64,000 nucleotides of DNA, from the NCBI RefSeq assembly GCF_030652235.1, contig NZ_JAUSBA010000026.1:1-64000 (forward strand), in the 5' to 3' direction. A program made the translations under genes and the position numbers. Position 1 is the stretch's first letter. The number at the start of each line of letters is the position of its first letter. Positions 3,969 to 28,740 of the stretch are shown here, piece after piece. The notes beneath the pieces are model-generated. The model ran no database searches. It had not been told where the DNA came from and saw only the letters and a list, made by a program, of their open reading frames with translations. The stretch comes from Cypionkella sp. GTDB lineage: Bacteria > Pseudomonadota > Alphaproteobacteria > Rhodobacterales > Rhodobacteraceae.

Positions 3969-4025
3969 AGGGTTTCCTTCGTAGGGTTGGCGTTTGGGTC
4001 CCGTACAGGTGTACGGACGCATGTG

Positions 4026-6713: not shown

Positions 6714-6714
6714 A

Positions 6715-10442: not shown

Positions 10443-11327
10443 TCAGCCCTTGATCGCTTTCAGCACGGCCTCGCCCAAGGTCGCCGGGCTGTCGGCCACA
10501 ATGATCCCGGCCATTTTCATCGCCTCGATCTTCGATTGCGCATCGCCTTTGCCGCCTGCCACAATGGCACCGGCATGGCCCATGCGGCGGCCTTCGGGGG
10601 CGGTGCGGCCGGCGATAAAGCCTGCGGTGGGTTTCCAGCGGCCACGCTTTTTCTCATCGGCAAGAAATTGGGCTGCATCTTCTTCGGCCGCGCCACCGAT
10701 TTCACCGATCATGATGATCGAATGGGTGTCGGGGTCGGCGAGGAACATTTCAAGGATATCAATGTGCTCGCTGCCCTTGATCGGATCACCCCCAATGCCG
10801 ACAGCCGAGGTCTGACCCAAGCCCACGTCGGTGGTCTGCTTGACGGCCTCATAGGTCAGCGTGCCAGAACGCGACACAACCCCGACCGAACCCTTCGAGA
10901 AAATGCTGCCCGGCATGATGCCGATTTTGCACTCGCCGGGGGTCATCACGCCGGGGCAGTTTGGCCCGATCAGGCGCGACTTGGAATTGATCAGCGCGCG
11001 CTTGACCTTCATCATATCCAGCACCGGGATGCCTTCGGTGATGCAAACGATCAGCTCCATCTCGGCATCAATCGCTTCAAGGATGCTGTCAGCCGCAAAC
11101 GGCGGCGGCACATAGATCACCGATGCATTGGCCCCGGTGACCGCGCGGGCCTCATGCACAGAATCAAACACCGGCAGGTTCAGGTGGCTGGAGCCACCCT
11201 TGCCGGGCGTGACGCCGCCGACCATTTTGGTGCCGTAAGCGATGGCCTGTTCCGAATGGAACGTGCCTTGGCTGCCAGTGAAGCCTTGGCAGATGACGCG
11301 GGTGTTAGCGTTTACGAGTACGGCCAT
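10443..11327 (-). CDS. sucD: Succinyl-CoA ligase, alpha subunit
   Basis: 294 residues. It catalyses substrate-level phosphorylation from succinyl-CoA together with SucC. It shows the CoA-binding Rossmann start ([19 protein letters not shown]), the conserved [20 protein letters not shown] and the phosphohistidine loop in [13 protein letters not shown]. The length matches the family. It is preceded by an exported-protein gene and a 55-nt gap after sucC, and followed at 2 nt by a second exported-protein gene. Confidence 0.97.
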
Positions 11328-11382: not shown

Positions 11383-11859
11383 TCATTCTATTGGTGTCGC
11401 CTCAAAGCGTACGCCGCTATCGGTGTCAGAGCCGCAGGTCGGATCATTACCAGCCGAGGTGACGGTGGCGCTGACCCCTGTGTCGAAATCAAGCCGGGTG
11501 CAGCCCATGCCATCCTTCGAATAGACAAACGGCGCACCGTCTTCGCCGCCAAGTGCTGCGGCAAGGATTTCCGATGCGGTGGAACTGTCTACGCTGGTGC
11601 TTTCAACATGGCAGAAGGATCCCTCGGCCATGTAAACAATCGTATCGTCGCCGACACCGGGGTAGAAATAGATCAAACCCTCTTCGCCGTCGTCATTACG
11701 CGTCCAGTATAGGCTGGTGAGCATGGCTTCGGTCAGATCAACCTGATTGCCGCCCGACAGGCACGCCATATACCCTTCAACCAATTGGTTGCGCGGTTCG
11801 GCGTCCTGTGCCGCAGCCGCGCTTGCCAATAGCGTAAAAATGGCGGCTTGGCGGATCAT
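11383..11859 (-). CDS. Exported protein of unknown function between sucC and sucD
   Basis: 158 residues. The N-terminus ([22 protein letters not shown]) is a Sec signal peptide. The mature protein is acidic with four cysteines (ACLSGG, SFCHVE, MGCTRL, PTCGSD), consistent with periplasmic disulfides. Its ATG overlaps the sucC stop (ATGA, 11856-11859), which indicates translational coupling. I do not recognise the family. Confidence 0.75.
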
Positions 11860-13049
11860 CCCTTCACCGCTTTAACGATCTTCTGCGCGGCGTCTGACAG
11901 GTTATCCGCGGCGATCACGTTCAGGCCGGAATTGCGGATGATGTCTTTGCCCAGTTCCACATTGGTGCCTTCAAGGCGCACCACCAGCGGCACTTTCAGC
12001 CCGACCTCTTTCACCGCCGCAATCACGCCCTCGGCGATGATGTCACAGCGCATGATGCCGCCGAAAATGTTGACGAGGATGCCTTTGACCTGCGGGTCAG
12101 AGGTGATGATCTTGAACGCCTCGGTGACCTTTTCCTTGGTCGCACCACCGCCGACGTCAAGGAAGTTGGCAGGCTCGGCACCATAAAGCTTGATGATGTC
12201 CATCGTCGCCATCGCAAGGCCAGCGCCGTTGACCATACAACCGATTTCGCCATCCAAGGCGATGTAGTTCAGATCAAACTTGGAGGCTGCGAGTTCTTTC
12301 GGGTCTTCTTCCGTCTCATCACGCAGCGCCGCAATATCGGGGTGGCGATACATCGCGTTGCCGTCAAAGCTCATCTTGGCATCCAAGAGCTTCATGTTGC
12401 CGTCTTTCATCACGACAAGCGGGTTGATTTCCAGCATGTCCATGTCTTTTTCGACGAACATCTTATACAGGTTCTTCACGATGCCGACGCATTGCTTGAC
12501 CTGATTGCCGGTTAGCCCCAACGAGAAGGCAACGCGGCGACCGTGGAAATCGGAATAGCCGGTGGCCGGATCGACGCTGAATGACAAGATCTTTTCCGGC
12601 GTGTCATGGGCAACGTCTTCAATCGACATGCCGCCTTCGGTAGAACACACGATCGAGATCCGGCTGGTCTGGCGATCAATCAGCAGGGCGAGATATAACT
12701 CCCGCTCAATATCGCTGCCGTCTTCGATGTAGATGCGGTTGACCTGCTTGCCCGCAGGCCCGGTCTGCACGGTAACCAACGTGCGACCCAGCATTTGGCG
12801 GGCAAACTCCGCCGCCTCACCGACCGAGCGCGCCAGCCGCACGCCGCCTTTTTCACCTGCTTCGGGTTCCTTGAAATGACCCTTGCCGCGGCCGCCCGCG
12901 TGGATTTGCGCCTTGACCACCCAGAGCGGGCCATCGAGTTCGCCTGCCGCAGACTTGGCTTCTTCCGCCTTGGTCACGGCGCGGCCATCGGACACCGGGA
13001 TGCCATAGCTGCGCAGCAGAGCCTTGGCCTGATATTCATGGATATTCAT
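11856..13049 (-). CDS. sucC: Succinyl-CoA ligase, beta subunit
   Basis: 397 residues, the usual length. An N-terminal ATP-grasp fold starts [19 protein letters not shown], with [11 protein letters not shown], and the C-terminal ligase domain has [17 protein letters not shown] and [15 protein letters not shown]. It binds nucleotide and succinate and pairs with SucD. It is the first gene of the minus-strand TCA operon that runs to lpd. The 190 nt upstream hold two TGTGATCACA palindromes and a GCGC-centred dyad. Confidence 0.97.
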
Positions 13050-13145: not shown

Positions 13146-13176
13146 TGTGATCACACAAAAAAAAATTGTGATCACA
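13146..13176. promoter_or_regulatory. Two TGTGATCACA operators upstream of sucC
   Basis: Perfect 10-bp palindromes TGTGATCACA lie at 13146-13155 and 13167-13176, with centres 21 bp apart (two helical turns) and an A-rich linker. The same pair with the same spacing lies upstream of sdhC. They are about 100 nt from the sucC start. The matching architecture at two TCA promoters implies a shared regulator. An RpiR-family activator (AkgR) is known to control TCA genes in Rhodobacter, but whether this is its motif is my inference. Confidence 0.7.
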
Positions 13177-13208
13177 TGAGGGGATTCCTTAAGTTTATCA
13201 GGGCTTGC

Positions 13209-13222
13209 TGTTCGCGCTAACG
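13209..13222. promoter_or_regulatory. GCGC-centred dyad between sucC and glycosyltransferase
   Basis: TGTTCGCGCTAACG has the dyad core GTTnGCGCnAAC, typical of LacI-family operators. It resembles what I recall for CceR, the central-carbon regulator of Rhodobacter. A similar core TTTGCGCTAA stands upstream of mdh. It lies in the divergent interval and could serve either gene. Confidence 0.4.
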
Positions 13223-13269
13223 CCCGGCATTGTTCCTGCATGGGTGTAAAACGGGATGGCAGCAGTTCG

Positions 13270-14343
13270 ATGAAACCAACTTGGGCAGTGGTGGCCACGC
13301 TGGACGAGCCGGCAGCACTGGTGGCGGCTTTTGTGGCCCATCATCTGGCGCAGGGGGCCGCGAAGGTGCATCTTTTTCTTGATCAGCCGGATGCAGAAGC
13401 GCAGGCCATGCTGGCAGATCTGCCCGGCTGCGAGGTTACGGTCTGCGACGCCAGCTATTGGGCGGCATCGGCTCACGGCAAGCGTCCGGCGTTGCACACC
13501 AGCCGCCAAGTCAAAAACGCGCGGCAGGTTTACGCCCGCTGCGGCGCCGACTGGCTGTTGCACTGCGACGGCGACGAATTCCTGCGCGACGGCGTCATGC
13601 TGCGGGCCGAACTGGCTCGCGCCCCTGCCAAAGCGATGTATATGCGGCTTTTGGTGGCCGAGCGCGCCTATCCCAGGGGGGCTGTTGGGGCACAGATTTT
13701 CTCTGGCGTGTTTCGGCATGAGCTTCCCGACTATCCGCACCATGGCCCCGAGGTTTATGGCGAGATGCAGGCGTATTTTCATTATGGCCTGACGGGGCAT
13801 CGGGCGGGCAAGGCCTTGGTGCGGGTGGGGGCGGGGATGCAGATGGGGCTACACGCGCCGCTGGGTAAGCCCGCACACAAGGCCATCCAGTCGACCCGGC
13901 TTTTACATTTTGACGGGCTGACCCGGCTGCATTTCACCTTGAAACTGCTGCGCCGCGCGCATGAGCCCCCCAGCCACGCCAGCAATCGGCATGGTGCCGC
14001 GCGCAGCACGCAGTTTTTGTCGATGTGCGAGGCGATGGCCGCGCCAGAGATGCGCACGGCCTTGGTGGCGGTGCTGAAAGAGTTGGAACCTGATCAGATT
14101 CGGCAGTTGCGGCGCTTGGGTGCTTTGGACGAGACAGGCTTTGATCCACGCCCGGTTTTGGCCGCAGCGGGCCTTGCGCCGGATCTGTCAGAGGCGGCGT
14201 TTGATGCCAGTTTGCGCCAGCGCTATGCTGGATTTTTGCAGAAACACGCGCCGGATTTGGCCAGAGTTAGTTCAAATAGAACGACAGCATCATCGCCTCG
14301 CCACCCATCATCTGCTCAAACGCGCTCCAGTTCTGGTCGCTGA
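13270..14343 (+). CDS. Glycosyltransferase family 2-like protein (Glyco_tranf_2_4 type)
   Basis: About 357 residues, divergent from sucC. The N-terminus WAVVATLDEPAALVAAFVAHH and the motif WLLHCDGDEFLRDG (metal-binding D-G-D) match the family of the gene at 4418. The middle contains MYMRLLVAERAYPRG, and a His-rich segment lies near residue 170. Start at MKPTWAVV; an in-frame ATG at 13240 adds ten residues without a better ribosome site. The last 25 or so residues are a Ser/Thr/Arg-rich tail encoded opposite the 3' end of the convergent neighbour and look like read-through after loss of an original stop. Confidence 0.8.
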   Translation: MKPTWAVVATLDEPAALVAAFVAHHLAQGAAKVHLFLDQPDAEAQAMLADLPGCEVTVCDASYWAASAHGKRPALHTSRQVKNARQVYARCGADWLLHCDGDEFLRDGVMLRAELARAPAKAMYMRLLVAERAYPRGAVGAQIFSGVFRHELPDYPHHGPEVYGEMQAYFHYGLTGHRAGKALVRVGAGMQMGLHAPLGKPAHKAIQSTRLLHFDGLTRLHFTLKLLRRAHEPPSHASNRHGAARSTQFLSMCEAMAAPEMRTALVAVLKELEPDQIRQLRRLGALDETGFDPRPVLAAAGLAPDLSEAAFDASLRQRYAGFLQKHAPDLARVSSNRTTASSPRHPSSAQTRSSSGR

Positions 14344-15466
14344 CAAGCTGGCCCTGTTCCAAGTAGGGTGCGGCAGCCCAGCCTTGAATCCAGCCAGCCA
14401 GATCAGCAGGGCGTGGATCGGTAAAGACCTTGGCGAGGTTCACGCCCGCTGCCCCCTCTTGCCGCCAATAGGGAGCGAGTTTGCTACCCTTCAGCAGCGC
14501 TTCGGCATCGTCTAGCACTGATAGCCACACCGCTTTGGTGCCCGGCGGCAGGGTTACGCCCAAGGCTGATTGCTGGTTGTCATTTGGCAACCATTCGGCG
14601 GCATTATCGGTTTCTTGCGCCACTTCGGCCCAGAAGCGGCGGTTGTCGGCGATCATGCTTAGGAAATGCTGCTGCGCACTGGTCATCCGCGCGGCATCGG
14701 GGGCCCGTTGCAGCGTGGCGATCAGGATGGCGATCAGATCGACCTCGTCCAGTCCACCCTGCGCATCGCTGAGAAAGCTGGGAGCGGTGCCGCCAAGGCT
14801 GACCATTTTATCATGCGCAGCCATAATGCGGGTGATTGGCTCGGTCGGATCATAGGCCAAAACCAAATCGCTGACGCCCTGCAACAGATGGGTATAGGCC
14901 GAAAGCCAGGCCACGTCGGCGGCATCGAATTTCACCACCGGGGCCGGGGTGGCGGGGTCGCGGCTGTCCCATTGCCAACCCAGCAGCATTGGCCCCAGCA
15001 CCGCCATCGCATCCTCGCCGATGTCGCGGGTATGGTTGGCGTTGATGTCAAACCACAGGTCGGCGAAGTTGATTTCCAACATTAAATCAGAGTGTTCTGC
15101 AATTTCGGCCAATGGTGCGCGGGCCTGAGCCAGTTTTTCATCCACGGTGCGGAACAGATCGGAAATCATCGCCGGCTGAAAGGCGGCAGGGCTGGGGTTA
15201 TCTTCCAGCGGCAGACGCAGGAACGGCAGCATCCCGGTGCGATCGATCATTCCTGCCGCGTAACGCAGTTGCAAGGCGGCTTCAACTGCGCCGAGAAACC
15301 GCACGCCGCCAAGCGCAAAACGGTCGGCATCTGTCGGCGCAGGCAGTGCGGCCAGCCGCGTCTCGGTGGTGCTCAGCCCCTTGCTGCCAATCTCGGCGGA
15401 AAGGGTTTCGGCGTGCAGCGGGGCCGCAAGGCACAAAAGCGGCAATAGGGATGGCAGAATACGCAT
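14267..15466 (-). CDS. Exported protein of unknown function, about 400 residues
   Basis: 399 residues with a signal peptide (MRILPSLLPLLCLAAPLHA). The mature part is mostly helical and acidic, with one cysteine-free globular domain, for example LPLEDNPSPAAFQPAMISDL and DAQGGLDEVDLIAILI. I do not recognise the family; it could be a roseobacter-type periplasmic protein. The start at MRILPS is chosen over an ATG 54 nt upstream because of the signal peptide. It overlaps the convergent glycosyltransferase by 77 nt at the 3' end. The methyltransferase gene ends 72 nt upstream on the same strand. Confidence 0.7.
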   Translation of the reverse strand: MRILPSLLPLLCLAAPLHAETLSAEIGSKGLSTTETRLAALPAPTDADRFALGGVRFLGAVEAALQLRYAAGMIDRTGMLPFLRLPLEDNPSPAAFQPAMISDLFRTVDEKLAQARAPLAEIAEHSDLMLEINFADLWFDINANHTRDIGEDAMAVLGPMLLGWQWDSRDPATPAPVVKFDAADVAWLSAYTHLLQGVSDLVLAYDPTEPITRIMAAHDKMVSLGGTAPSFLSDAQGGLDEVDLIAILIATLQRAPDAARMTSAQQHFLSMIADNRRFWAEVAQETDNAAEWLPNDNQQSALGVTLPPGTKAVWLSVLDDAEALLKGSKLAPYWRQEGAAGVNLAKVFTDPRPADLAGWIQGWAAAPYLEQGQLVSDQNWSAFEQMMGGEAMMLSFYLN

Positions 15467-15537
15467 GGCAATCTCCACTGGAATTTGGCGCAGGGTGCGC
15501 CAGGCGGTCTGCGATGGCAACTGTGGGATTCCAGACC

Positions 15538-16209
15538 CTAGGCTGGGGTGGCCACGAACAACACCTGCCCGCGCGGTAGGCGGGTTTGGTGTTGATCCAC
15601 TGCAAAACCCGAAGCGCGGGTCAGCTGCAGCACGTCCTCGGTCAGCATATGATAGGGCGCGCGGGTATCATGGGTGACCACGCCGTCGGGTTGTTTGACC
15701 GGAAGCAGGCTGGCGCTGGCATCGGGGGCAAGAAAGGCGGTGAACAGCAGCTTTTGCAAGGCGGGAAAGCGGCCGCGGATCTGAATCAACGCCCGGCGCA
15801 GGTGGTTGGCGGGCAGATGGGTGAACACCGCAAAGGCGATGGCATGGGTGATATTGTCGGGCACGCCGGGGAAGTTGAAATTGGCATCCTCAATCAGCTG
15901 CGCGGGCGAGAGGCGGGATTTATCCGCGATTTCCGTCTCATAGCCGCGTTTGAGCAGCGTGCCGGACAGATCTGTCGCCCAATAGTGGCCGGAGGTCAGG
16001 TATGGCACCGCCTTGCAGCCTAGGCGCAGCGATCCCGCGCCAATATCGAGTAGGTGGTGGTCCGGTTGCAAATCTGCCCCGAGCAGCAGTTCCATCTGGA
16101 TCTTGCCCGTCTCCTCCCACCGTCCGCCAACGATGTCACGGTGCCGCCCTTTCGCGAGGGCATCAGCGTAGAAATTCGGAGCATGATAGGGCGAGATGTG
16201 CTGGGCCAT
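15538..16209 (-). CDS. SAM-dependent class I methyltransferase
   Basis: 223 residues. Motif I HHLLDIGAGSLRLG, an acidic position in YWATDLSGTLLKRGYE and AIAFAVFTHLP in the motif II/post-II region show a Rossmann methyltransferase. The substrate is unknown. Start at MAQHISPYHAPNFYADAL; a further upstream start would run through a GC-rich repeat (16231-16285) and adds 59 implausible residues. pepT ends 82 nt upstream on the same strand, with the repeat between. Confidence 0.8.
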   Translation of the reverse strand: MAQHISPYHAPNFYADALAKGRHRDIVGGRWEETGKIQMELLLGADLQPDHHLLDIGAGSLRLGCKAVPYLTSGHYWATDLSGTLLKRGYETEIADKSRLSPAQLIEDANFNFPGVPDNITHAIAFAVFTHLPANHLRRALIQIRGRFPALQKLLFTAFLAPDASASLLPVKQPDGVVTHDTRAPYHMLTEDVLQLTRASGFAVDQHQTRLPRGQVLFVATPA

Positions 16210-16230
16210 GGGATTTCTTGCCACAAACGC

Positions 16231-16285
16231 CGGGGGTTTCCCACCCCCGGACCCCCTCGGGATATTTGCGCGCAGAGGATCAAAA
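16231..16285 (+). repeat. Dispersed repeat: C/G hairpin plus ATATTTGCGCGCAGAGGAT core
   Basis: An inverted repeat CGGGGG-TTTCCCA-CCCCCG is followed by GGACCCCCTCGGGATATTTGCGCGCAGAGGAT. The same layout (hairpin, run of C, then TATTT and GCGCA-AGGAT) is seen at 31406-31460. Relatives with the GGAGTATTT core lie at 41177, 43661 and 59421. The copy separates pepT and the methyltransferase and is not part of either gene. It may act as an RNA processing or stabilising element. Confidence 0.6.
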
Positions 16286-16291
16286 CTTGAT

Positions 16292-17533
16292 TCAAGCTGC
16301 AGGCTTTGCGGCGTGTTGGACGAGGGCGAGACAGAACGCGGTGGCTTGGCCCATATCCTGCACCGAAATCCACTCCAGTGGGCCATGAATATCCTGCATC
16401 CCGGTGAACAGGTTGGGGCAGGGCACGCCCATCTCGGTCAAGCGCGAGCCGTCGGTGCCGCCGCGGATCGGAACGGATACTGGCTCAATCCCCAGACTGC
16501 GGGCGGCGTCGCGCGCCAGATCGACCGGGGTCATGTCTTTTTCCAGCCAATAGCGCATGTTGCGGTATTGCGGCTTGATCACGCAGGTGATTTCAGCGCG
16601 CGGTTCGGTGGCGGCGACGGCAGCGCAGACCTGTTGCAGCAGTGCGCCTTTGGCAGCGAGGCCATCGCGTTCAAAGTCGCGCAGGATGAACTTGAGGATC
16701 ATTTCCGAGGAGCCGCCGGTCATATCTGTGGCGTGGATGAAGCCGCCGCGGTCTGAGGTGGTTTCCGGGGTGAGCGTGGCGTGCGGCAGGGTCTGGATGA
16801 TCTTGGCGGCAAGGTGGATGGCGTTGACGAGTTTATCCTTGGCCAAGCCGGGGTGGATCGACACACCTTTGATGGTCACGACGGCCCCGTCGGCCGAGAA
16901 GCTTTCGTATTCGATCTCGCCCACCGCACCGCCGTCAAAGGTATAGGCGAAATCGGCTTTCAGATCGGCGGGAAGGTTGGAATGGACACCGCGACCGATT
17001 TCCTCATCCGGGGTGAAGGCGAGGCGCAGGGTGGGGTGCGAGATCTCGGGGTTGGCGAGCAGATGGCGGGCGGCGGTCATCAGGATCGCGACGCCAGCCT
17101 TATCGTCCGCGCCCAGCAGGGTGAGACCCGAGGCGGTGATGATGTCGTGGCCTTGTTTGGTGCCGAGGTAGGGGTTGTGCTCGGGGGTAAGCGTGAGGGT
17201 GGGGTTGTCGGGGAAGCTGATCGTGCCGCCGTTGTAGCCTCGGATCACCCGGGGTTTGACGCCTGTCGCGTTGAACTGCGGGGCGGTGTCGATATGGGCA
17301 AGCAGGCCTATGGTGGGGCCGGGGACGTTGCCGGGGATGGTGGCTATGACGGTGCCATAGGGGGTGAGTTGGACATCTGCGGCGCCGATTTCGCGCAGTT
17401 CGGTTTCCAGCAGGCGCAGGATGGTCAGCTGGATTTCGGTGGAGGGCGAGGCGGTGCCGCCGTCGTTGGATTGGCTGTCGATGCTGGCGTAGCGGATCAG
17501 GCGGGATTCAAGCTCGGCGTGGAAATCGGTCAT
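16292..17533 (-). CDS. pepT: Peptidase T (tripeptide aminopeptidase)
   Basis: 413 residues, M20 family, cytosolic. It removes the N-terminal residue of tripeptides with two zinc ions. The ligand set is visible in order: LLAHIDTAP (His, Asp), LGADDKAGVA (Asp), TPDEEIGRG (Glu pair) and the late DIHGPLEWISVQDM (His). The dimerisation domain lies between (GVSIHPGLAKDKLVNAIH). Start at MTDFHAELESRL, since the longer frame adds a proline-rich leader from non-coding DNA. It is single or weakly linked to mdh. Confidence 0.93.
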   Translation of the reverse strand: MTDFHAELESRLIRYASIDSQSNDGGTASPSTEIQLTILRLLETELREIGAADVQLTPYGTVIATIPGNVPGPTIGLLAHIDTAPQFNATGVKPRVIRGYNGGTISFPDNPTLTLTPEHNPYLGTKQGHDIITASGLTLLGADDKAGVAILMTAARHLLANPEISHPTLRLAFTPDEEIGRGVHSNLPADLKADFAYTFDGGAVGEIEYESFSADGAVVTIKGVSIHPGLAKDKLVNAIHLAAKIIQTLPHATLTPETTSDRGGFIHATDMTGGSSEMILKFILRDFERDGLAAKGALLQQVCAAVAATEPRAEITCVIKPQYRNMRYWLEKDMTPVDLARDAARSLGIEPVSVPIRGGTDGSRLTEMGVPCPNLFTGMQDIHGPLEWISVQDMGQATAFCLALVQHAAKPAA

Positions 17534-17599
17534 TCTGGCCTCCGGAGGTTTGGGCGGAGTTGGGCGGAGCCAGAGGGGGGTGTCAAGGGGGGTGGGGGC

Positions 17600-17683
17600 G
17601 GTCCCAACTCGGGACCATTTTAGTGTCTTTATAATCAATGGGTTGAGGTGGTGGATTTAAGAGTTTGTTAAGGATTTGCGCCG
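17600..17683 (+). repeat. Dispersed hairpin repeat with TTAA-N7-TTAA box, copy 1
   Basis: In the 334-nt gap between mdh and pepT. The hairpin GGTCCC-AACTC-GGGACC (17600-17616) is followed by ATTTT, then TCAATGGGTTG and TTAAGAGTTTGTTAA (17657-17671). The last is TTAA-N7-TTAA, the consensus of CtrA boxes. A second copy with the same order lies at 59314-59396. Here both flanking genes are on the minus strand, so the plus-strand T run does not terminate any annotated gene. The rest of the gap (17684-17790) shows nothing recognisable. Confidence 0.6.
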
Positions 17684-17790
17684 GCGAAGATGTGGGTTTC
17701 ACACTTCCACGCTCTTGACGAAGGGCCTATGTGATCATCCGGGATAAAACAACGAGCCAGTTTCGATTTGAACCCAAATGGCAAAACGCA

Positions 17791-17819
17791 AAATGCGCAC
17801 CCTTTTCGGGCGCGCATTT
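17791..17819 (-). terminator. Terminator after mdh
   Basis: Minus-strand stem AAATGCGCGCCC / GGGTGCGCATTT (one G-U pair) with a GAAAA loop, followed by T residues, about 50 nt past the mdh stop. It has the form of an intrinsic terminator. Confidence 0.7.
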
Positions 17820-17825
17820 ATAGGC

Positions 17826-17845
17826 GGTGCGTGAAATCACGCACC
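17826..17845 (+). repeat. GGTGCGTGA hairpin, member of a small dispersed family
   Basis: Inverted repeat GGTGCGTGA/TCACGCACC followed by CTACC. A second member at 21670-21688 keeps the layout GCGGTG...CACCCTAC but changes both arms together (GGTGGGGT/ACCCCACC), so the stem is conserved though the bases differ. It is placed 22 nt after the mdh stop. Confidence 0.5.
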
Positions 17846-17867
17846 CTACCCGATTGCCGATTGTGGC

Positions 17868-18947
<1,080 letters not shown>

Positions 18948-19051
18948 GGGCGCTGGCAGCTTTAGGCTTCGGCGATAAGCTTGCGATTCAGGGGCCGCCG
19001 GGATCGGCAACGCGGTGATCATGGGTGATTCCGCTGGCAGGGGAAAGAGCC

Positions 19052-19807
19052 ATGATGGGTGGATTTGCGTTTTGGGCGCTTGCGAGCTTAGCCTCGGTGC
19101 TGGTCGGCATGGGCAAGGGCGGTTTGCCGGTGGTGGGGATGCTGTCGGTGCCGGTGCTGGCGCTTGTGCCGGGAATTTCTCCGGTGACTGCGGCGGGGTT
19201 GCTTTTGCCACTGTATGTGGTGTCGGATATGTTCGGGCTTTACGCCTATCGCCATGCGTTTGATCGCAGGGTGCTGGCGCTTATGATTCCGGCTGGCACC
19301 TTAGGGGTGGCGATTGGCTATTTCACCGCAACTGTGGTGTCGGAAGCTTGGGTCACGGTGCTGATCGGGGTGATCGGTGTGGTGTTCGCGCTGAACCTGC
19401 TGATCCGGCGGCAGGTGATCGTGGCACCTGCGCGGGCCAAGGTGGCATCGGGGGTGTTTTGGGGGACGGTGACCGGGTTTACCAGTTTTGTCAGCCATTC
19501 CGGCGGGCCGCCCTATCAGGTCTACACCATGCCGTTGGGCCTAAGCAAAGCGGTGTTTGCCGGCACCTCGACGATCGCCTTTGCCTATATCAATGCGATC
19601 AAGCTGATCCCGTATTACATGCTGGGGCAGATCAATCTCGCCAGTCTAGAGAAGGTCTTGGTGTTGATGCCGATTGCAGCGATATCCGTTTTTGCCGGGG
19701 TGCGGCTGGTGAAATGGCTGCCCGAGCGATTGTTTTTTCAGCTGGTGACTTGGGCGCTGCTGTTGGTGTCGATCAAACTGATGTGGGATGGGTATAAGGC
19801 CATCTGA
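19052..19807 (+). CDS. TauE/SafE (TSUP) family membrane transporter
   Basis: 251 residues with about eight hydrophobic segments and the TSUP repeats GMGKGGLPVVGMLSVPVLA and FTSFVSHSGGPPYQVYTMP. Members export organosulfur or sulfite anions; the substrate here is unknown. The double ATG at 19052/19055 follows a GGGAAAGAG ribosome site; the earlier in-frame ATG at 19025 has none. It diverges from mdh. Its 3' end overlaps a small exported-protein ORF on the opposite strand. Confidence 0.85.
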   Translation: MMGGFAFWALASLASVLVGMGKGGLPVVGMLSVPVLALVPGISPVTAAGLLLPLYVVSDMFGLYAYRHAFDRRVLALMIPAGTLGVAIGYFTATVVSEAWVTVLIGVIGVVFALNLLIRRQVIVAPARAKVASGVFWGTVTGFTSFVSHSGGPPYQVYTMPLGLSKAVFAGTSTIAFAYINAIKLIPYYMLGQINLASLEKVLVLMPIAAISVFAGVRLVKWLPERLFFQLVTWALLLVSIKLMWDGYKAI

Positions 19808-19887
19808 ACCGGGGCGGCTTGGGCTGCGTGCACCGCAAGGATCAGGCCTGCGAAGCCGAGCGACAGGGCGAATAAGGTCTTTTCCAT
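19738..19887 (-). CDS. Small exported protein, possibly truncated
   Basis: 49 residues. MEKTLFALSLGFAGLILAVH ends in an AQA-type cleavage site, an excellent Sec signal peptide, with GGAGA before the ATG. The family I recall from Rhodobacteraceae continues as about 100 residues with cysteines. Here only about 20 unrelated residues follow, antisense to the TauE gene end. It is either a degenerate copy cut by the neighbour or a genuine tiny exported peptide. Confidence 0.4.
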   Translation of the reverse strand: MEKTLFALSLGFAGLILAVHAAQAAPVQMALYPSHISLIDTNSSAQVTS

Positions 19888-20043
19888 TGCGGTCTCCGGG
19901 TTGGGGTTTGCGCTTAGGCTGCGCGGAAGATGCGAGGAAAGTGTTAAGGCCGCGTGCGGGTTTTTCTGCGCTGCGGCATTTCTGGACTTGCTGAAAGTGG
20001 CGAAATGAGGCCTTTTGGCGCAATATTGTTGCTGGAGAGAATC

Positions 20044-20892
20044 ATGACCGCTCGCCCCTTCCGATCTGTGCTGTATATTCCGGGCTCGAAAGCGCGGGCG
20101 CTGGAGAAGGCGCGCAGCCTTGCGGCGGATGCGATCATCTTCGATCTGGAGGATGCGGTGGCGCCCGAGGAGAAGGCGCTCGCGCGGGAGGTGCTGGCGC
20201 AGGCTTTGGCTGAGGGCGGCTATGGCAACCGGGCGCGCATTGTGCGGATCAACGGGTTGGATACCCCATGGGGGGGCGAAGACTTGGCGGCGTTTGGCGC
20301 GCATCCTGGGGTGGAGGCGGTGCTGATCCCCAAGGTGAACCGGGCGTCTGATCTGGACGCGGTGGCGGCCGTGACGGCCAAGCCCTTGTGGGCGATGATG
20401 GAAACGGCGCTGGGCATGTTGAACGCCGCCGAGATTGCGGCGCATCCGAAGCTGGCGGGCATGGTGATGGGCACCAATGATCTGGCCAAGGAATTGGGCG
20501 CTCGCGATCGGGCGGACCGGTTGCCACTGCAGGCGGGGTTGGGCTTGTGTCTGCTGGCGGCACGGGCTTATGGCCGGGTGATCGTCGATGGCGTCTATAA
20601 CGCGTTCAAGGATGATGCGGGGCTGCTGGCGCAATCTGTACAGGGCCGCGACATGGGATTTGACGGCAAAACCCTGATCCATCCGGCGCAGTTGCAGATT
20701 GCCAATGCGGCCTTTGCGCCATCGGCGGCGGAATTGGACCTCGCGCATCGTCAGATCGCGGCGTTCAATGCAGCGGTGGCGGCGGGGCAGGGTGTGGCGG
20801 TTGTGGATGGAAAGATCGTCGAAAACCTGCATATCGTCACCGCACAGGCGGTTCTAGGGAAGGCCCAGATGATAGCCGCGCTGTCTGCATGA
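20044..20892 (+). CDS. mcl2: HpcH/HpaI-type CoA lyase, probable (3S)-malyl-CoA thioesterase
   Basis: 282 residues, CitE-like TIM barrel. Conserved blocks are RSVLYIPGSKARALEKA, AIIFDLEDAVAPEEK (Mg-binding acidic pair), MMETALGMLNAAEIA and MGTNDLAKELGAR. Length and N-terminus resemble the Rhodobacter malyl-CoA thioesterase Mcl2 more than the longer Mcl1 lyase, so it would release malate from malyl-CoA in the ethylmalonyl-CoA pathway. The downstream mesaconyl-CoA hydratase supports this. Start at MTARPFRS after GGAGAG. The lyase alternative cannot be excluded without alignment. Confidence 0.82.
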   Translation: MTARPFRSVLYIPGSKARALEKARSLAADAIIFDLEDAVAPEEKALAREVLAQALAEGGYGNRARIVRINGLDTPWGGEDLAAFGAHPGVEAVLIPKVNRASDLDAVAAVTAKPLWAMMETALGMLNAAEIAAHPKLAGMVMGTNDLAKELGARDRADRLPLQAGLGLCLLAARAYGRVIVDGVYNAFKDDAGLLAQSVQGRDMGFDGKTLIHPAQLQIANAAFAPSAAELDLAHRQIAAFNAAVAAGQGVAVVDGKIVENLHIVTAQAVLGKAQMIAALSA

Positions 20893-20902
20893 GGTTTTGG
20901 CG

Positions 20903-21460
20903 ATGATCTGGCTGATTTTGGGACTGGCCCTTTGGGTGGGCGCGCATTTTTTCAAACGTGTGGCCCCGGACGTGCGGGCGGGCATGGGCGACCGGGGCAA
21001 GCTGGTGGTGACAGGGCTGTTGCTGCTGGCGGTGGTGCTGATGGTGGTGGGATATCGCGCGGCGGACTGGGTTTCGGTTTACACGCCGCTGCCGGGGATG
21101 GGGCATTTGAATAACACCTTGATGTTGGTGTCTTTGTTCCTGTTTGGGGTCGGCGGCACCAAGGGCACTTTATATCCCAAAATGCGGCACCCGATGCTGT
21201 GGGGGGCTGTGGTGTGGGCGGTGGCGCATTTGTTGGTGAATGGCGATCAGGCATCCATAGTGCTGTTTGGCGGTATCGGGATTTGGGCCTTGGCCGAGAT
21301 GGTGCTGATCAATCGGTCTGCAGTTTGGGTGGCCCCTGTCAATGGCCGCGGCATCAAGGGTGATGCGATGAATTTGGTCGGCACTGTGGTGCTGATGGGG
21401 ATTATCGCGTTGATCCACGCATGGCTGGGGCATCCGGTGTTTTTGGGAACGTATTCCTGA
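20903..21460 (+). CDS. nnrU: NnrU family membrane protein
   Basis: 185 residues with four or more hydrophobic helices and the NnrU-type features GMGHLNNTLMLVSLFLFGVGG, MRHPMLWGAVVWAVAHLL and the C-terminal segment GRGIKGDAMNLVG. NnrU was named from nitrite/nitric oxide reduction loci, but many members lie elsewhere and the biochemical function is open. ATG at 20903; a TTG six nucleotides earlier is also in frame. It is cotranscribed with mcl2 (10-nt gap) and a DUF1737 gene (overlap). Confidence 0.85.
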   Translation: MIWLILGLALWVGAHFFKRVAPDVRAGMGDRGKLVVTGLLLLAVVLMVVGYRAADWVSVYTPLPGMGHLNNTLMLVSLFLFGVGGTKGTLYPKMRHPMLWGAVVWAVAHLLVNGDQASIVLFGGIGIWALAEMVLINRSAVWVAPVNGRGIKGDAMNLVGTVVLMGIIALIHAWLGHPVFLGTYS

Positions 21461-21663
21461 TGCAGCTGTATCGGTTTTTGTCCGACGACGACACATCTGC
21501 GTTTTGCCACAAGGTGTCTTTGGCGCTGAGCAAAGGCTGGGTGCTGCATGGCACGCCGACTTACGGGTTTGACGCCAGCCGGGGCGTGATGCGCTGCGGG
21601 CAGGCGGTGTTGAAGGATGTGCCGGGGATTTACGACCCCGAGATGAAGCTGGGTGAGGCTTAA
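21460..21663 (+). CDS. DUF1737 domain protein
   Basis: 67 residues. MQLYRFLSDDDTSAFCHKV and LSKGWVLHGTPTYGFD match DUF1737, a small domain of unknown function. ATG overlaps the nnrU stop (TGATG, 21458-21462), so the pair is translationally coupled. It is followed by a hairpin repeat and the mch gene. Confidence 0.8.
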   Translation: MQLYRFLSDDDTSAFCHKVSLALSKGWVLHGTPTYGFDASRGVMRCGQAVLKDVPGIYDPEMKLGEA

Positions 21664-21669
21664 AGAAGC

Positions 21670-21688
21670 GGTGGGGTGAAACCCCACC
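21670..21688 (+). repeat. GGTGGGGT hairpin, second member of the small family
   Basis: Stem GGTGGGGT/ACCCCACC with loop GAA, followed by CTAC, between the DUF1737 gene and mch. It is related to 17826-17845 with compensating changes in both arms. No T run follows, so termination is unlikely and mch probably remains in the operon. Confidence 0.5.
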
Positions 21689-21706
21689 CTACGGGGTGAA
21701 AACGTG

Positions 21707-22732
21707 ATGAAAACCAATGCGGGGCGGTTCTTTGAGGATTACCGGGTGGGCGATGTCATCACCCATGCGGTGCCCCGGACAGTGAAAATGGGCGAGCGCG
21801 CGCTGTATCACGCGCTGTATCCGGCGCGGCATGCTCTGTATTCCTCGGATATTTTTGCCCAAGAGTGTGGCCTGCCGTTCAGCCCCTTGGATGATCTGAT
21901 CAGTTTTCACGTGGTGTTCGGCAAGACCGTGCCGGATGTGTCTTTGAACGCGGTGGCGAATTTGGGTTATGCCGAGGGGCGCTGGCTGCGGCCGGTGTGG
22001 TCGGGCGATACGTTGCGCTCTGAAAGCACGGTGATCGGGGTTAAGCAAAATTCGAACGCGCAATCGGGCGTGGTCTATGTGCGCACGGTCGGGCTGAACC
22101 AGCATCACGAAGCGGTGCTGGAATATGTGCGCTGGGTGATGGTGAAGAAACGCGATTTTTCGGCGCTGGCTCCGCTGACGGTGGTTCCGGAACTGGCTAA
22201 GGTGGTGGAGCCTGCGGCGTTGGTGATCCCGCAGGGGCTTGATTTCTCGCGCTATAACTTTGCGCTGGCCGGCGAGCCGCATCGGATGCGCGATTATGCG
22301 GTGGGTGAGGTGATCGACCATGTCGATGGTGTGACCATCGAGGAAGCCGAGCATATGCTGGCGACAAGGCTGTGGCAGAACACGGCCAAGGTGCATTTTG
22401 ATGCCACGCAGCGCCCGGATGGCAAGCGGCTGATTTACGGCGGGCATGTGATTTCCTTGGCGCGGGCGTTGTCGTTCAATGGGCTGGCCAATGCGCAAAT
22501 GTTGGTGGCGCTGAACGCGGGTGCGCATGCCAATCCGTGCTTTGCCGGTGATACGGTGCGGGCGTGGTCGGAAGTGTTGGATATGGTTGAAACCGATGCA
22601 AAGGGTGTGGGCGCGATCCGGTTGCGGCTGGTGGCGACCAAGGGTGCTGCGGGGGCGCTTCGGGGATCGGATGGTAAATATCTGCCCGAGGTGCTGCTGG
22701 ATCTGGATGTTTGGGCGTTGATGCCGGTTTAG
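21707..22732 (+). CDS. mch: Mesaconyl-CoA hydratase (double MaoC)
   Basis: 341 residues, two hot-dog domains. The N-terminus MKTNAGRFFEDYRVGDVITH and the segment ALYHALYPARHALYSSD match the Rhodobacter mesaconyl-CoA hydratase, which converts mesaconyl-C1-CoA to beta-methylmalyl-CoA in the ethylmalonyl-CoA pathway. The C-terminal domain carries RLIYGGHVISLARALSF and NPCFAGDTVRAWSEVLD. It is the last gene of the mcl2-nnrU-DUF1737-mch set. A GTG 3 nt upstream is also possible as start. Confidence 0.92.
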   Translation: MKTNAGRFFEDYRVGDVITHAVPRTVKMGERALYHALYPARHALYSSDIFAQECGLPFSPLDDLISFHVVFGKTVPDVSLNAVANLGYAEGRWLRPVWSGDTLRSESTVIGVKQNSNAQSGVVYVRTVGLNQHHEAVLEYVRWVMVKKRDFSALAPLTVVPELAKVVEPAALVIPQGLDFSRYNFALAGEPHRMRDYAVGEVIDHVDGVTIEEAEHMLATRLWQNTAKVHFDATQRPDGKRLIYGGHVISLARALSFNGLANAQMLVALNAGAHANPCFAGDTVRAWSEVLDMVETDAKGVGAIRLRLVATKGAAGALRGSDGKYLPEVLLDLDVWALMPV

Positions 22733-22798
22733 TGTTTGTCTGCTGGCGGTTGCCTGAACGAGCAGGCCGTGACAGGGTGATCCAAAATCGGGGGTATC

Positions 22799-23560
22799 AT
22801 GCGGCAATTTCTATGGGCGGCGGCTTTGTGCGCAGCGGCCACTGGTGCCACAGCACAAACGGTATTTCAGTTTCCCGAGGATGAAGAAGAATCCGCTTTC
22901 ATCGCCAACGAGGTGATCGCGACCTTCTATCACGAACTGGGCCACGCGATGATCGACGTGCTGCAACTGCCGGTTTTGGGCAAGGAAGAAGACGCGGCGG
23001 ACCATCTTTCGGTGATCTTGATGAACGACATCTGGGAGGAAGAAGCGGCGGCGAATATCCTTGCCAGCGATGCCACGGCCTATGCATTGCAGGCTGATCA
23101 GCGCGAAGCGGGCGGTGAGGCGCCGTCCTATTCCGATGAGCATAGCATGGATATGCAGCGCTATTACTCGGTGGTGTGCCTGTTCTATGGGGCAAATCCC
23201 GAGGCCCGGCAGGGCCTTGCGGATGAGCTTGGCTTGCCGCCAGAACGGGCCGAGCGCTGCCCCGAGGAATGGCAGGCGGCGGCTGGATCTTGGGATGCGG
23301 TGTTGGCGGATGCGACTCCGGGCGGGGATAATGTCGGGCTGGTGATGCAGCCGGGGCAGGAAGGCCAGCCGCTTGCCGATCTGATCGCCGAAGAGGTTAC
23401 GAGCATCAACGCGCGCTTCGGTCTGCCGCTGCAGGTCAGCGTTGTGGTGGCCGATTGCGGCGAGGCGAACGCCTATTACAGCCCGAGTGAGCAGACCATC
23501 ACGATTTGCAACGAATATGCCCAGAACCTGCAAGCGATGTGGGAAGCTTCGCCAGATTGA
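22799..23560 (+). CDS. DUF4344 exported metallopeptidase-like protein
   Basis: 253 residues with a signal peptide (MRQFLWAAALCAAATGATAQ). The zinc motif FYHELGHAMIDVL sits at about residue 44-56, and a downstream acidic helix EEDAADHLSVILM supplies a likely third ligand. This is the DUF4344 pattern. Four cysteines lie in the C-terminal half (VVCLFY, AERCPEE, VADCGEA, ITICNEY), suggesting two disulfides. It is exported to the periplasm. The substrate is unknown. A palindrome pair of the sdhC promoter begins right after its stop. Confidence 0.8.
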   Translation: MRQFLWAAALCAAATGATAQTVFQFPEDEEESAFIANEVIATFYHELGHAMIDVLQLPVLGKEEDAADHLSVILMNDIWEEEAAANILASDATAYALQADQREAGGEAPSYSDEHSMDMQRYYSVVCLFYGANPEARQGLADELGLPPERAERCPEEWQAAAGSWDAVLADATPGGDNVGLVMQPGQEGQPLADLIAEEVTSINARFGLPLQVSVVVADCGEANAYYSPSEQTITICNEYAQNLQAMWEASPD

Positions 23561-23565
23561 TAAAT

Positions 23566-23600
23566 TTTGTGATCACATGAATTTTTCATGTGATCACAAA
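23566..23600. promoter_or_regulatory. Paired TGTGATCACA operators upstream of sdhC
   Basis: TGTGATCACA at 23568-23577 and 23589-23598, centres 21 bp apart, within a larger perfect inverted repeat whose 16-nt arms start TTTGTGATCACATGAA. Sequence and spacing equal those of the sucC promoter. The site overlaps the end of the upstream gene and lies about 170 nt before sdhC. Confidence 0.7.
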
Positions 23601-23681: not shown

Positions 23682-23765
23682 ATGAGCCAAGCTATGAAGC
23701 CGCCATTATAAATGTTTTGGGCGGCCCCATGCGGATCAAGAGAGATCAAGAGAAAGGCAACAGGT

Positions 23766-24158
23766 ATGGCCGAGAACAAACGGGTCGTCGAACGCCCACT
23801 TTCGCCATTTATGATCGGCCCCTATTACCGGGTGCAACTGACCTCGGTGACGTCGATCCTGACGCGGATCACGGGCAACGGGCTGATCGTCGGCGTGATG
23901 CTTGCGGTGTGGTGGTTGTTTGCGGCGGCGGTATCGCTCGCATATTTCGCGGTGGCGAACCGCGTGGCGACAAGCTGGTTTGGCGATCTGGTGTTCACCT
24001 GCTCGGCTTGGGCGGTGTGGTATCACTATTTGTCTGGTCTGCGGCATCTGTATTTCGATGCAGGTCACGGGCTGGAGATTGCCACCGCTGAAAAGCTGGG
24101 CTGGGGCATCATCGCGGGGTCGTTCATTCTGACCGCGCTTACCATTCTGATCGTGTAA
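23766..24158 (+). CDS. sdhC: Succinate dehydrogenase cytochrome b556 subunit
   Basis: 130 residues with three transmembrane helices. The conserved RPLSPFMIGPYYRVQLTSVTS start (quinone-site Ser/Arg region) and the heme-ligand segment HYLSGLRHLYFDAGHG identify SdhC, the membrane anchor of complex II. Start at MAENKRVVERPLSP, since the longer frame upstream is promoter DNA. It is first of the sdhCDA-...-sdhB operon. Confidence 0.95.
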   Translation: MAENKRVVERPLSPFMIGPYYRVQLTSVTSILTRITGNGLIVGVMLAVWWLFAAAVSLAYFAVANRVATSWFGDLVFTCSAWAVWYHYLSGLRHLYFDAGHGLEIATAEKLGWGIIAGSFILTALTILIV

Positions 24159-24168
24159 GGGGCTGAAC

Positions 24169-24540
24169 ATGCGTTATCTTACCGCGCGCAAACGGGCTGA
24201 GGGCAACGGTGCCTCGCATACCGGGACGGCGCATCATTGGTCGATGACCCTCTCTTCGGTCGCATTGGCTTTCCTTGTGCCAACTTGGGTCTACATCGTG
24301 GGTCATGCGCTGGGCCAAGATTACGAGGCGGTGCGGGCGACGTTTGCGCGCCCCTTCACTTCGATTCTGACGGCTTTGGTTTTGGTGATCGGGATGCGGC
24401 ATTTCGCGATGGGGGCCACGATGATGATCGAAGATTACGCGCAGGGCACCGCGCGCAAGATCGCGATCATGTTTGTGATCTCGCTTTCCACCGTGATCGC
24501 GGCGACGGGGCTCTATGCCCTTGTGCGCATTGCACTTTAA
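24169..24540 (+). CDS. sdhD: Succinate dehydrogenase membrane anchor subunit
   Basis: 123 residues with three hydrophobic helices. MRYLTARKRAEGNGASHTGT is the usual N-terminal extension, and the segment YIVGHALGQDYEAVRATFA includes a histidine expected near heme b and the quinone pocket. It starts 10 nt after sdhC and is followed at 9 nt by sdhA. Confidence 0.94.
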   Translation: MRYLTARKRAEGNGASHTGTAHHWSMTLSSVALAFLVPTWVYIVGHALGQDYEAVRATFARPFTSILTALVLVIGMRHFAMGATMMIEDYAQGTARKIAIMFVISLSTVIAATGLYALVRIAL

Positions 24541-24549
24541 GGGGCTGAT

Positions 24550-26352
24550 ATGACTGCTTATCCGTATGAAGTGCACGACTATGATGTGGTCGTGGTGGGG
24601 GCTGGCGGCGCGGGTCTTCGCGCGACTTTGGGCATGGCCGAACAGGGTTTGCGCACGGCTTGCGTGACGAAAGTATTCCCGACCCGCTCGCACACTGTCG
24701 CCGCACAGGGCGGCATTGCCGCGTCTTTGGGCAATATGGGGCCGGATAGCTGGCAGTGGCATATGTATGACACGGTCAAGGGCAGCGACTGGCTGGGCGA
24801 CACCGATGCAATGGAATACCTCGCGCGTGAGGCCCCGAAAGCGGTCTATGAACTGGAGCACTACGGTGTTCCGTTTTCGCGCACCGAAGAGGGCAAGATT
24901 TATCAGCGGCCTTTCGGCGGTCATACCACCGAATACGGTGAAGGCCCGCCGGTGCAACGCACTTGTGCGGCGGCAGACCGGACGGGGCATGCGATTTTGC
25001 ACACTTTGTATGGGCAATCGCTTAAGAATAATGCCGAGTTTTTTATCGAATATTTCGCGATTGATCTGATCATGACCGATGGCCGCTGCACCGGCGTGGT
25101 GGCGTGGAAGCTGGACGATGGCACGATCCATGTGTTCAACGCCAAGATGGTGGTGCTGGCGACGGGCGGTTACGGGCGGGCGTATTTCAGCGCAACTTCG
25201 GCGCATACCTGCACCGGCGACGGCGGCGGTATGGTGGCGCGCGCGGGGCTGCCGTTGCAGGATATGGAGTTCGTGCAGTTTCACCCGACTGGTATCTATG
25301 GCTCGGGCTGTCTGATCACCGAGGGCGCGCGTGGCGAGGGCGGCTATCTGACCAACTCGGAAGGTGAGCGGTTCATGGAGCGTTATGCGCCGCATTACAA
25401 AGACTTGGCTCCGCGGGATTATGTGTCGCGCTGCATGACGATTGAAATTCGCGAAGGCCGTGGGGTGGGGGCCAATAAGGACCATATCCATTTGCACCTG
25501 AACCATTTGCCACCGGAAACTTTGGCTTTGCGGCTGCCGGGGATCTCGGAATCGGCGCGGATTTTTGCGGGCGTCGATCTGCACAAAGAACCGATCCCGG
25601 TGCTGCCGACGGTGCATTATAATATGGGCGGGATTCCAACCAACTACTTCGGCGAAGTGCTGAACCCGACCCATGACAACCCCGACGCCACCGTGCCGGG
25701 GCTGATGGCGGTGGGCGAGGCGGGCTGTGCAAGCGTGCATGGCGCGAACCGTTTGGGCTCGAATTCGCTGATCGACCTGGTGGTGTTTGGCCGGGCGGCG
25801 GCGATCCGTGCGGGCGAGATTGTGAAGCCGAAAGAGCGGGCTGCAGAGGTGAACCGGGCGGAAGTCGACCGCGCTTTGGGGCGGTTTGATGCGACGCGGC
25901 ACGCCAATGGTTCGCTGCCGACTGCGGATTTGCGGCTTGAGATGCAAAAGACCATGCAGGCCGATGCGGCGGTGTTCCGCACCGACAAGACCCTTGGCGA
26001 AGGGGTTGCCAAGATGACGGCGATTGCGGGCAAGATGGCTGATATCAAGGTGACGGATCGCTCCATGGTTTGGAACAGCGATCTGATGGAAACGCTGGAA
26101 CTTCAGAACCTTATGCCGAATGCACTGGCGACGATTGTGGGCGCTCATGCCCGCACCGAAAGCCGCGGCGCGCATGCGCATGAAGATTACGCCACGCGCA
26201 ATGACGCCGATTGGCGCAAGCACACGCTGGCTTGGGTTGACGGCAATTCCGTGCGGCTAGACTATCGCCCAGTGCATACGGCACCGCTGACATCAGAAGC
26301 CGATGGTGGGATTTCGTTGAAGAAGATTGCGCCTGCTGAAAGGAAGTTCTGA
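24550..26352 (+). CDS. sdhA: Succinate dehydrogenase flavoprotein subunit
   Basis: 600 residues, normal length. FAD-binding [20 protein letters not shown], the covalent FAD histidine in [12 protein letters not shown], the substrate-site [15 protein letters not shown], and catalytic HNMGG-like loop [12 protein letters not shown] are all present. It oxidises succinate to fumarate in complex II. The stop overlaps the start of a lipoprotein gene (26352), so the three genes that separate it from sdhB appear part of the operon. A 694-codon antisense frame is a shadow of this gene. Confidence 0.97.
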
Positions 26353-27411: not shown

Positions 27412-28188
27412 ATGGTTCAATTCACCCTGCCGAAAAACTCGAAAATCCGCACCGGCAAGACCTGGCCGAAGCCTGCGGGCGCGAATGTGCGCAAGTTCCA
27501 GATTTACCGCTGGACCCCGGATGACGGTGAAAACCCGCGGGTGGACAGCTATTTCGTCGATATGGACAGCTGCGGCCCGATGGTTCTGGACGCGCTGATC
27601 AAGATCAAGAATGAGATCGACCCGACGCTGACCTTCCGCCGTTCCTGCCGGGAAGGGATTTGCGGATCCTGTGCGATGAACATCGACGGCATCAACACCT
27701 TGGCCTGTATTTATGGACTGGATCAGGTGAAGGGCGATGTGAAGATTTATCCCTTGCCGCACATGCCGGTGATCAAGGATTTGATCCCCGATCTCACGCA
27801 TTTCTACGCACAGCACGCCAGCATCATGCCGTGGTTGGAGACCAAGACCAACAAGCCCGCGAAAGAATGGCGCCAATCGATCGAGGATCGCTCCAAGCTC
27901 GACGGGGTTTATGAATGCGTGATGTGCGCCTGTTGCAGCACGTCTTGCCCAAGCTATTGGTGGAATGGCGATAAATATCTGGGGCCTGCCGCCTTGCTGC
28001 ATGCTTACCGTTGGATCATCGACAGCCGCGATGAGGCGACCGGAGAGCGGCTCGATGATCTGGAAGACCCGTTCAAGCTCTATCGCTGCCACACCATCAT
28101 GAACTGCACCAAGACCTGCCCGAAGGGGCTGAACCCGGCCAAGGCGATTGCCGAGATCAAGAAGATGATGGTTGAGCGGGTGGTGTAA
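27412..28188 (+). CDS. sdhB: Succinate dehydrogenase iron-sulfur subunit
   Basis: 258 residues. Cluster ligands are visible: [2Fe-2S] in [16 protein letters not shown], [4Fe-4S] in [15 protein letters not shown], [3Fe-4S] in [17 protein letters not shown]. It passes electrons from SdhA to the quinone site. It is the last gene of the operon, with a terminator 25 nt downstream. Confidence 0.97.
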
Positions 28189-28260: not shown

Positions 28261-28740
28261 CTAAAGCGCCAGCAACGCCGCTTGGGTCTCGGGCGAGACG
28301 CTTTCAAACCCTTCGGTCAGATCATGCACCTCATTCACGATCTGGGAAATCTCGGCGCGCTCTGCCACGGTGAAATCCGGCCCGGTTTTGGTAATGCCTG
28401 CGATGGTGCGCGAGGTTTGCGGCCCCACCGCGTAGGTCCAGCCGTTGTGCAGCCCATGCGCCAACGCGTCACTTATGACGCCTTGTGGGTCTTGATCGGC
28501 GAGGTCGGCCCAGTTGACTGCACCTGTATGGGTCAGCCCCCAATGCACGACGGGGTCGCTAAGCATGAAGCCGCGCTCGCTGTAGTGATCAATCCACACC
28601 TGATCATAGGTTCTGTACAAGATCGTCGGGCGCGTGTAGCGGATGTGGGCTGCCAGAGCAAAACCGCTGTCGCAGAGCGCCCTCAACCGGGCTAACCGTT
28701 CTGAAACGGAGTCTGCCTTAGTCATATCCTTCACGATCAC
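28261..28740 (-). CDS. Ligand-binding-domain-only LuxR homologue
   Basis: 159 residues, the length of an autoinducer-binding domain alone. The pattern VWIDHYSERGFMLSDPVVHW keeps the Trp, Tyr, Asp-Pro and Trp positions that hold acyl-homoserine lactones in TraR/LasR. No HTH follows; the frame stops (TAG) and the next 72 nt to sdhB contain only a terminator. It diverges from a complete luxR with its synthase gene. Such a protein could sequester signal or form inactive heterodimers (compare TrlR of Ti plasmids); that role is inferred. A start at 28725 is also possible. Confidence 0.8.
   Translation of the reverse strand: MIVKDMTKADSVSERLARLRALCDSGFALAAHIRYTRPTILYRTYDQVWIDHYSERGFMLSDPVVHWGLTHTGAVNWADLADQDPQGVISDALAHGLHNGWTYAVGPQTSRTIAGITKTGPDFTVAERAEISQIVNEVHDLTEGFESVSPETQAALLAL

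Follow-up and report, generated by a model that had tools for sequence, protein, structure and literature searches.

We report here two identical operator pairs at tricarboxylic acid (TCA) cycle genes of Cypionkella sp., found in a stretch of 64,000 nucleotides (NCBI RefSeq assembly GCF_030652235.1, contig NZ_JAUSBA010000026.1, positions 1 to 64,000; hereafter the window). Two copies of the palindrome TGTGATCACA precede the gene run that begins with sucC, and two more precede the run that begins with sdhC. With a probability of about 0.87, we interpret both pairs as predicted operators of AkgR, a regulator with GntR and FCD domains, which would bind them as pairs of dimers and activate transcription of both gene runs.

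The four predicted operator halves are exact copies of TGTGATCACA. The sucC pair consists of a distal site at 13167-13176 and a promoter-proximal site at 13146-13155, and the sdhC pair of a distal site at 23568-23577 and a promoter-proximal site at 23589-23598; start-to-start spacing is 21 bp in both, precisely as an earlier sequence-only reading of the window had placed them. Its observation that the window holds no further copy stands for exact copies, with a single one-mismatch copy, TATGATCACA, found without a partner at 33400-33409. The sucC pair sits 96 bases upstream of the sucC start codon; a glycosyltransferase gene (13240-14343) is divergent from sucC, and the pair thus also lies 63 bases before the glycosyltransferase start codon. 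With one mismatch allowed, TGTGATCACA has five matches in the window against 1.58 expected from shuffling, a count of five being reached in one of 100 shuffles. The genome from which the window comes (4,799,893 bases, 76 contigs) contains nine exact copies; nine randomly placed sites would be expected to form about 1.5e-5 pairs per given spacing, and two were observed. A scan of this entire genome, in which the gap was set at 11 bases and no more than three mismatches were accepted over both sites, recovered the sucC and sdhC pairs only, and a reversed control pattern recovered none. The five exact copies outside the window pairs comprise four within open reading frames (ORFs; L005, L006, L008 and L009), which were rejected as further targets on account of this position, and one that is intergenic. 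In the latter locus (L007, 1501-1525), TGTGATCACA and a one-mismatch copy, TTTGATCACA, lie 15 bp apart, flanked by an FCD-type GntR gene and an ABC transporter that diverges from it, and are probably the operator of the adjoining FCD-type GntR paralogue.

The pair is widespread in the Rhodobacteraceae. Exact TGTGATCACA pairs with the gap left free between 0 and 30 were recovered from 188 of 295 genomes of the family, and none with the reversed control; among the pairs listed (at least 75), the gap is 11 in 70, 10 in four and 21 in one, and in all 30 family loci returned the exact pair stands before sucC (27) or sdhC (three). With the definition relaxed to a core pair, i.e. GTGATCAC twice at a distance of 20 or 21 bp, the pair was detected in 239 of 244 sampled genomes from an order-level draw that all belong to this one family, and the control in none. 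By table count, 212 of these genomes have two core pairs, 16 have one, 11 have three and five have none, the gene behind the pair having been inspected for a minority of the set. Four of the 11 third pairs proved to consist of one more tandem site next to a pair already present (G135, shown to be at sucC, G191, G421 and G424) and were not counted as a third target; neither were those of six genomes, which fall within open frames 233-577 codons long, not all of them necessarily genes. The remaining one (G230) is intergenic and precedes an ORF that resembles a transporter gene. In a class-level draw of 385 genomes, all five members of the family carried a core pair as against two of the 380 genomes from other families, where one genome matched the control pattern (G552). 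One of these two outside pairs lies inside an open frame (G680); the other (G625:C189, L330, 992-1020) is a GTGATCAC pair at 21 bp before an FCD-type GntR gene, and the paired layout may hence be used by paralogues too.

For the genes behind the pairs we examined 80 named loci, mostly Rhodobacteraceae by title, which were found via mesaconyl-CoA hydratase (mch), genomes without mch lying outside the set. Up to two mismatches per site were accepted in a pair upstream of a gene; within the stretch covered, a match to sucC was absent from 14 loci and one to sdhC from six. A pair lies upstream of sucC in 66 of 66 loci (spacing 21 in 60 and 20 in five, with a four-site array in L131 scored as 26) and upstream of sdhC in 74 of 74 (spacing 21 in 67). 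The first 65 sdhC loci divide into 60 with a spacing of 21, four with 20 and one with 22; nine others, whose alignment begins late in the protein, into seven with 21, one with 20 and one with 24 (L132). The other genes of the cluster gave 0 of 70 for mdh, 0 of 61 for sucD, 0 of 70 for sdhA, 0 of 68 for sdhB and 1 of 80 for mch. Some loci have three or four copies at one place, mostly 21 bp apart (L106, L131, G135, G191, G421, G424). Two arrangements in G136 are of a different kind. An exact pair in G136:C8 (L319, 1341-1381) has a 21-base gap and thus 31 bp between centres, near three helical turns, and the ORF behind it resembles by eye the TauE gene of this cluster; in G136:C1 (L320, 1253-1281), from the same 2.4-Mb genome, a 21-bp pair immediately precedes sucA, and the 3-kb stretch contains no match to sucC. 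The sequence-only reading had named frequent occurrence throughout the genome, or lack of the pair before sucC and sdhC in relatives, as outcomes that would speak against a common regulator; neither is seen, because the pair is rare genome-wide and strongly conserved before both genes.

An alignment of 60 sucC and 47 sdhC arrays, all with the 21-bp spacing, shows a nearly invariant 8-base core. Departures from TGTGATCACA gather where the two sites face each other: in the sucC arrays 25 of 27 fall at the two inner end positions, mostly as A to G at base 10 of the distal site and T to C at base 1 of the proximal site, and in the sdhC arrays 39 of 50 fall at inner ends, with seven at the distal and two at the proximal outer end. 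The two outside flanking bases at sucC are preferentially T on the distal side (85 and 88%) and A on the proximal side (93 and 93%), a preference that is similar at sdhC on the proximal side only. The consensus is roughly TTTGTGATCAC(A/G)-N9-(T/C)GTGATCACAAA plus flanks, with a T-rich middle at sucC. The pair is, in other words, a single dyad of 31 bp whose inner ends are less strict than its outer ones, and therefore fits two dimers that would face each other on one face of the DNA.

The candidate regulator is encoded in the window itself. The akgR gene (1688-2350, plus strand), which is convergent with lpd, specifies a protein of 220 amino acids, with an N-terminal GntR domain (Pfam, 1e-14) and an FCD domain (2.5e-18) as its only Pfam matches at E 0.001; neither the RpiR helix-turn-helix (HTH) nor the SIS domain was matched. 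Members of the RpiR family combine the RpiR HTH with the SIS sugar-phosphate domain. AkgR is reportedly called a GntR-family regulator in the abstract of Imam et al. 2015 (mBio). The assignment of AkgR to the RpiR family in the sequence-only reading is accordingly to be corrected, the window protein being of GntR and FCD type and two papers agreeing with GntR (PMC4344238, PMC6365646). A single clear orthologue (67-86% identity) is present in all 11 genomes behind named loci, the next best match reaching 39% at most. We presume that one genome, sampled from the genus that includes Cereibacter ovatus and carried under two handles with identical coordinates (G051 and G309), is that of Rhodobacter sphaeroides, and we take RSP_0981 of this species to be AkgR. 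Both pairs are present in this genome, and its genes follow the order sdhC, sdhD, sdhA, two small ORFs, sdhB, one ORF and then an akgR orthologue, to which the window protein is 79% identical; as sdh corresponds to RSP_0974-6 (PMC4344238), this order makes the orthologue count to RSP_0981. In the available excerpts of that paper, RSP_0981 is classed as a GntR-family regulator, and its predicted targets are RSP_0967-6 (sucCD), sdh and RSP_0965-62, 2-oxoglutarate dehydrogenase genes included (PMC4344238). Excerpts of another describe AkgR as a transcriptional activator, compare it with a gntR-like protein and place GTGATCAC among the AkgR binding sites identified in R. sphaeroides (PMC6365646). 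With this core among AkgR sites, the targets of RSP_0981 and an orthologue in the window, the idea of a single regulator for the two TCA operons, for which AkgR had been put forward, is supported, and the regulator of both pairs is very probably AkgR.

The distribution of akgR points the same way. At a threshold of E 1e-50 the gene was found in 268 of the 295 family genomes, in single copy except for G193, which has two; the 27 genomes lacking it comprise 20 that were listed and seven obtained by elimination, and akgR was the sole paralogue covered by the comparison. Exact pairs alone are present in 184 of 268 akgR-bearing and four of 27 akgR-lacking genomes. When exact pairs with gaps of 0-30 are pooled with core pairs at 20-21 bp (184 + 24 + 47 = 255), a test that covers 262 of the 268 bearers, 255 of 262 akgR-bearing genomes carry the pair, against six of 27 that lack akgR (Fisher 7e-21, for genomes that are not independent). 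A SucC tree with 68 rows shows 12 changes of akgR status, or eight without the six exceptional genomes, and in the contrasts of this tree the pair never goes the opposite way to akgR (two of two agree without the exceptions); with these 68 rows the tree gives no decision between loss and gain of akgR. In three genomes without akgR (G017, G109 and G157), one damaged site is left at or close to its customary distance from sucC, a picture that resembles decay following loss.

Several observations weigh against AkgR as the reader of these pairs. Six genomes without akgR keep the pair (G019, G096, G114, G256, G264 and G273); these assemblies have 50-540 contigs and are 73-100% complete, three of them under 80% and G114 rated at 100%, and because they are fragmented and in part incomplete, akgR was likely missed in them. 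Conversely, seven akgR-bearing genomes have no exact core pair. In two of these (G040 and G291), a degenerate pair occupies the expected position with the expected spacing. The stretch upstream is missing from G201, and the remaining four yielded no sucC that was both close and intact. Well-supported contrasts on the SucC tree number only five, or two without the exceptions, so that no significance is attainable from them. Nor is the spacing absolute, with values of 22 (L105), 24 (L132) and 26 within the four-site array (L131), and G125, which has four exact TGTGATCACA pairs at gaps of 0-30 and two core pairs at 20-21 bp, contains two exact pairs of neither 20- nor 21-bp spacing. Lastly, GntR/FCD paralogues may read similar palindromes, as the arrangements in L007 and G625 suggest. 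Another such paralogue, or several, could then bind the pairs, with AkgR as just one reader: the Cypionkella genome has 26 GntR-domain matches, 22 of them over the Pfam cut-off, TGTGATCACA adjoins the gene of one FCD paralogue (L030), and the GntR gene behind the 21-bp pair of G625 matches these proteins at 29-35%. Yet akgR, the one paralogue compared, tracks the pair, its nearest paralogues in the 11 genomes are no more than 39% identical, and the papers, in the excerpts available, name AkgR or RSP_0981; we consider a different paralogue improbable. A regulator of the CRP/FNR type is far less credible still. TGTGA and TCACA, which would serve as its half-sites, are indeed the half-sites of the CRP consensus, but they abut here with zero spacer, compared with six bases in that consensus, and this absence of a spacer disfavours such a regulator. 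Moreover, the 60 sucC and 47 sdhC arrays preserve the core GTGATCAC almost without a break and, judging from excerpts of PMC6365646, AkgR sites containing it have been published.

If AkgR is the reader, each TGTGATCACA palindrome would take one dimer, both sites perhaps being filled at once, and the two dimers, which would lie on the same DNA face at a distance of two helical turns, may contact or help each other. Given a suitable promoter geometry, they would activate RNA polymerase at the downstream promoter, thereby raising the arm of the TCA cycle from 2-oxoglutarate to fumarate; a search for -35 and -10 elements downstream of the sucC pairs, confined to sucC, found no position-fixed promoter. 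The FCD domain may read some ligand. Its residues N141, H145, H188 and D210, kept in 43 distinct aligned orthologues, have the look of what we take to be an FCD ligand or metal site. The cooperation of dimers, rather than the identity of the regulator, is called into question if AkgR binds each palindrome independently of the other and the spacing of 21 bp goes back solely to common descent from a single ancestral pair. Spacing can be inherited within a family, the pairs at sucC and sdhC could stem from an old duplication, and a few spacings of 22, 24 and 26 exist. Against this, linkers vary freely between genomes and their length mostly stays at 20-21, the 20-bp variants occur in several differently named genera, added third copies are again mostly 21 bp away (G135, G191, G421, G424, L106), and in one pair the sites are 31 bp apart, close to three turns. 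Descent by itself is thus unlikely to account for the spacing, though it is the more serious of the alternatives considered.

The dimer-pair interpretation can be carried further, to an obligate dimer of dimers on the 31-bp dyad, in which inner half-sites would be tuned to be weak and outer ones kept strict, the 21-bp phase would be selected and switching would be sharp, and in which a single site at the akgR start would, in some lineages, close the loop by autorepression. We offer this tentatively, as a possibility that we would sooner bet against than for. Its last element draws on 50 akgR start regions, a set that leans to near relatives of the window (L221, at a contig end, was dropped). 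In 14 of them, an exact single GTGATCAC falls within the interval from -30 to +4 relative to the aligned start; none of the remainder has a copy with one mismatch and 36 have one with two or three, and control stretches within the gene have none with fewer than two mismatches. The akgR gene of the window has no such GTGATCAC site in its start region. Where GTGATCAC lies over the akgR start codon, it would suit autorepression, which AkgR may exert in those lineages.

The genes behind the pairs form two runs. On the minus strand, sucC (11856-13049; succinyl-CoA synthetase beta, first of the presumed operon), sucD (10443-11327) and sucA (6715-9699; 2-oxoglutarate dehydrogenase E1) were each named by an NCBIfam equivalog, and sucB (5502-6764; E2), which adjoins sucA, and lpd (2580-4022; E3), with which the run ends, from reading of their translations. 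On the plus strand, the second pair precedes sdhC (23712-24158; TIGR02970, with the conserved start probably the ATG at 23766), sdhD (24169-24540; TIGR02968), sdhA (24550-26352; TIGR01816) and sdhB (27412-28188; PRK05950), all named through NCBIfam. Gene order and mostly short gaps suggest that both runs, sucC-sucD-sucA-sucB-lpd and sdhC-sdhD-sdhA-sdhB, are operons. Directly after sdhB, a minus-strand ORF (28261-28740) has a LuxR-type autoinducer-binding domain and no match to the GerE DNA-binding domain; it stops about 70 bases from sdhB and therefore leaves little room for a GerE domain. A full LuxR (28843-29454) and a LuxI-type synthase (29584-30258) adjoin it.

Among solved structures, the best sequence match of AkgR is E. 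coli McbR (4p9f; E 3.6e-21, residues 22-209), which is presumably of the GntR/FCD type. The operators and targets of McbR differ from those of AkgR. The closest known system is the AkgR regulon of R. sphaeroides, with an orthologous GntR/FCD protein (79%), sucCD, sdh and 2-oxoglutarate dehydrogenase as targets, and the GTGATCAC core, as far as excerpts describe it (PMC4344238, PMC6365646); it differs in genus and in the position of akgR, beside lpd here and beside sdhB there. PS417_07240, which regulates the deoxyribonate cluster of Pseudomonas simiae, is likewise gntR-like, 32% identical to AkgR and proposed to bind GTGATCAC, but its palindrome is at one place, upstream of a different catabolic cluster, and no pair is mentioned in the excerpts available (PMC6365646). 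In Shewanellaceae, sdh is controlled by PdhR, in passages that do not name AkgR (PMC5343134). Literature on the TGTGATCACA motif yielded nothing relevant by title and that on GTGATCAC with GntR yielded PMC6365646, which does not make the architecture unpublished. What we describe is hence a known regulator with known targets in another genus, and its paired 21-bp architecture may or may not have been described in print already; beyond the passages cited, our analysis adds the family-wide pair rule, the composite dyad, the co-occurrence with akgR and the lineage-specific akgR site.

These results amount to a testable rule for the Rhodobacteraceae, which specifies a regulator, two targets, an operator geometry and the lineages that lack both the pair and akgR. 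In most genomes of the family, the pairs together with akgR ease annotation of the regulon. Most GntR/FCD members that have been studied are repressors, and for this reason the near-strict geometry of the pairs offers a clean system for cooperation between activators of this type.

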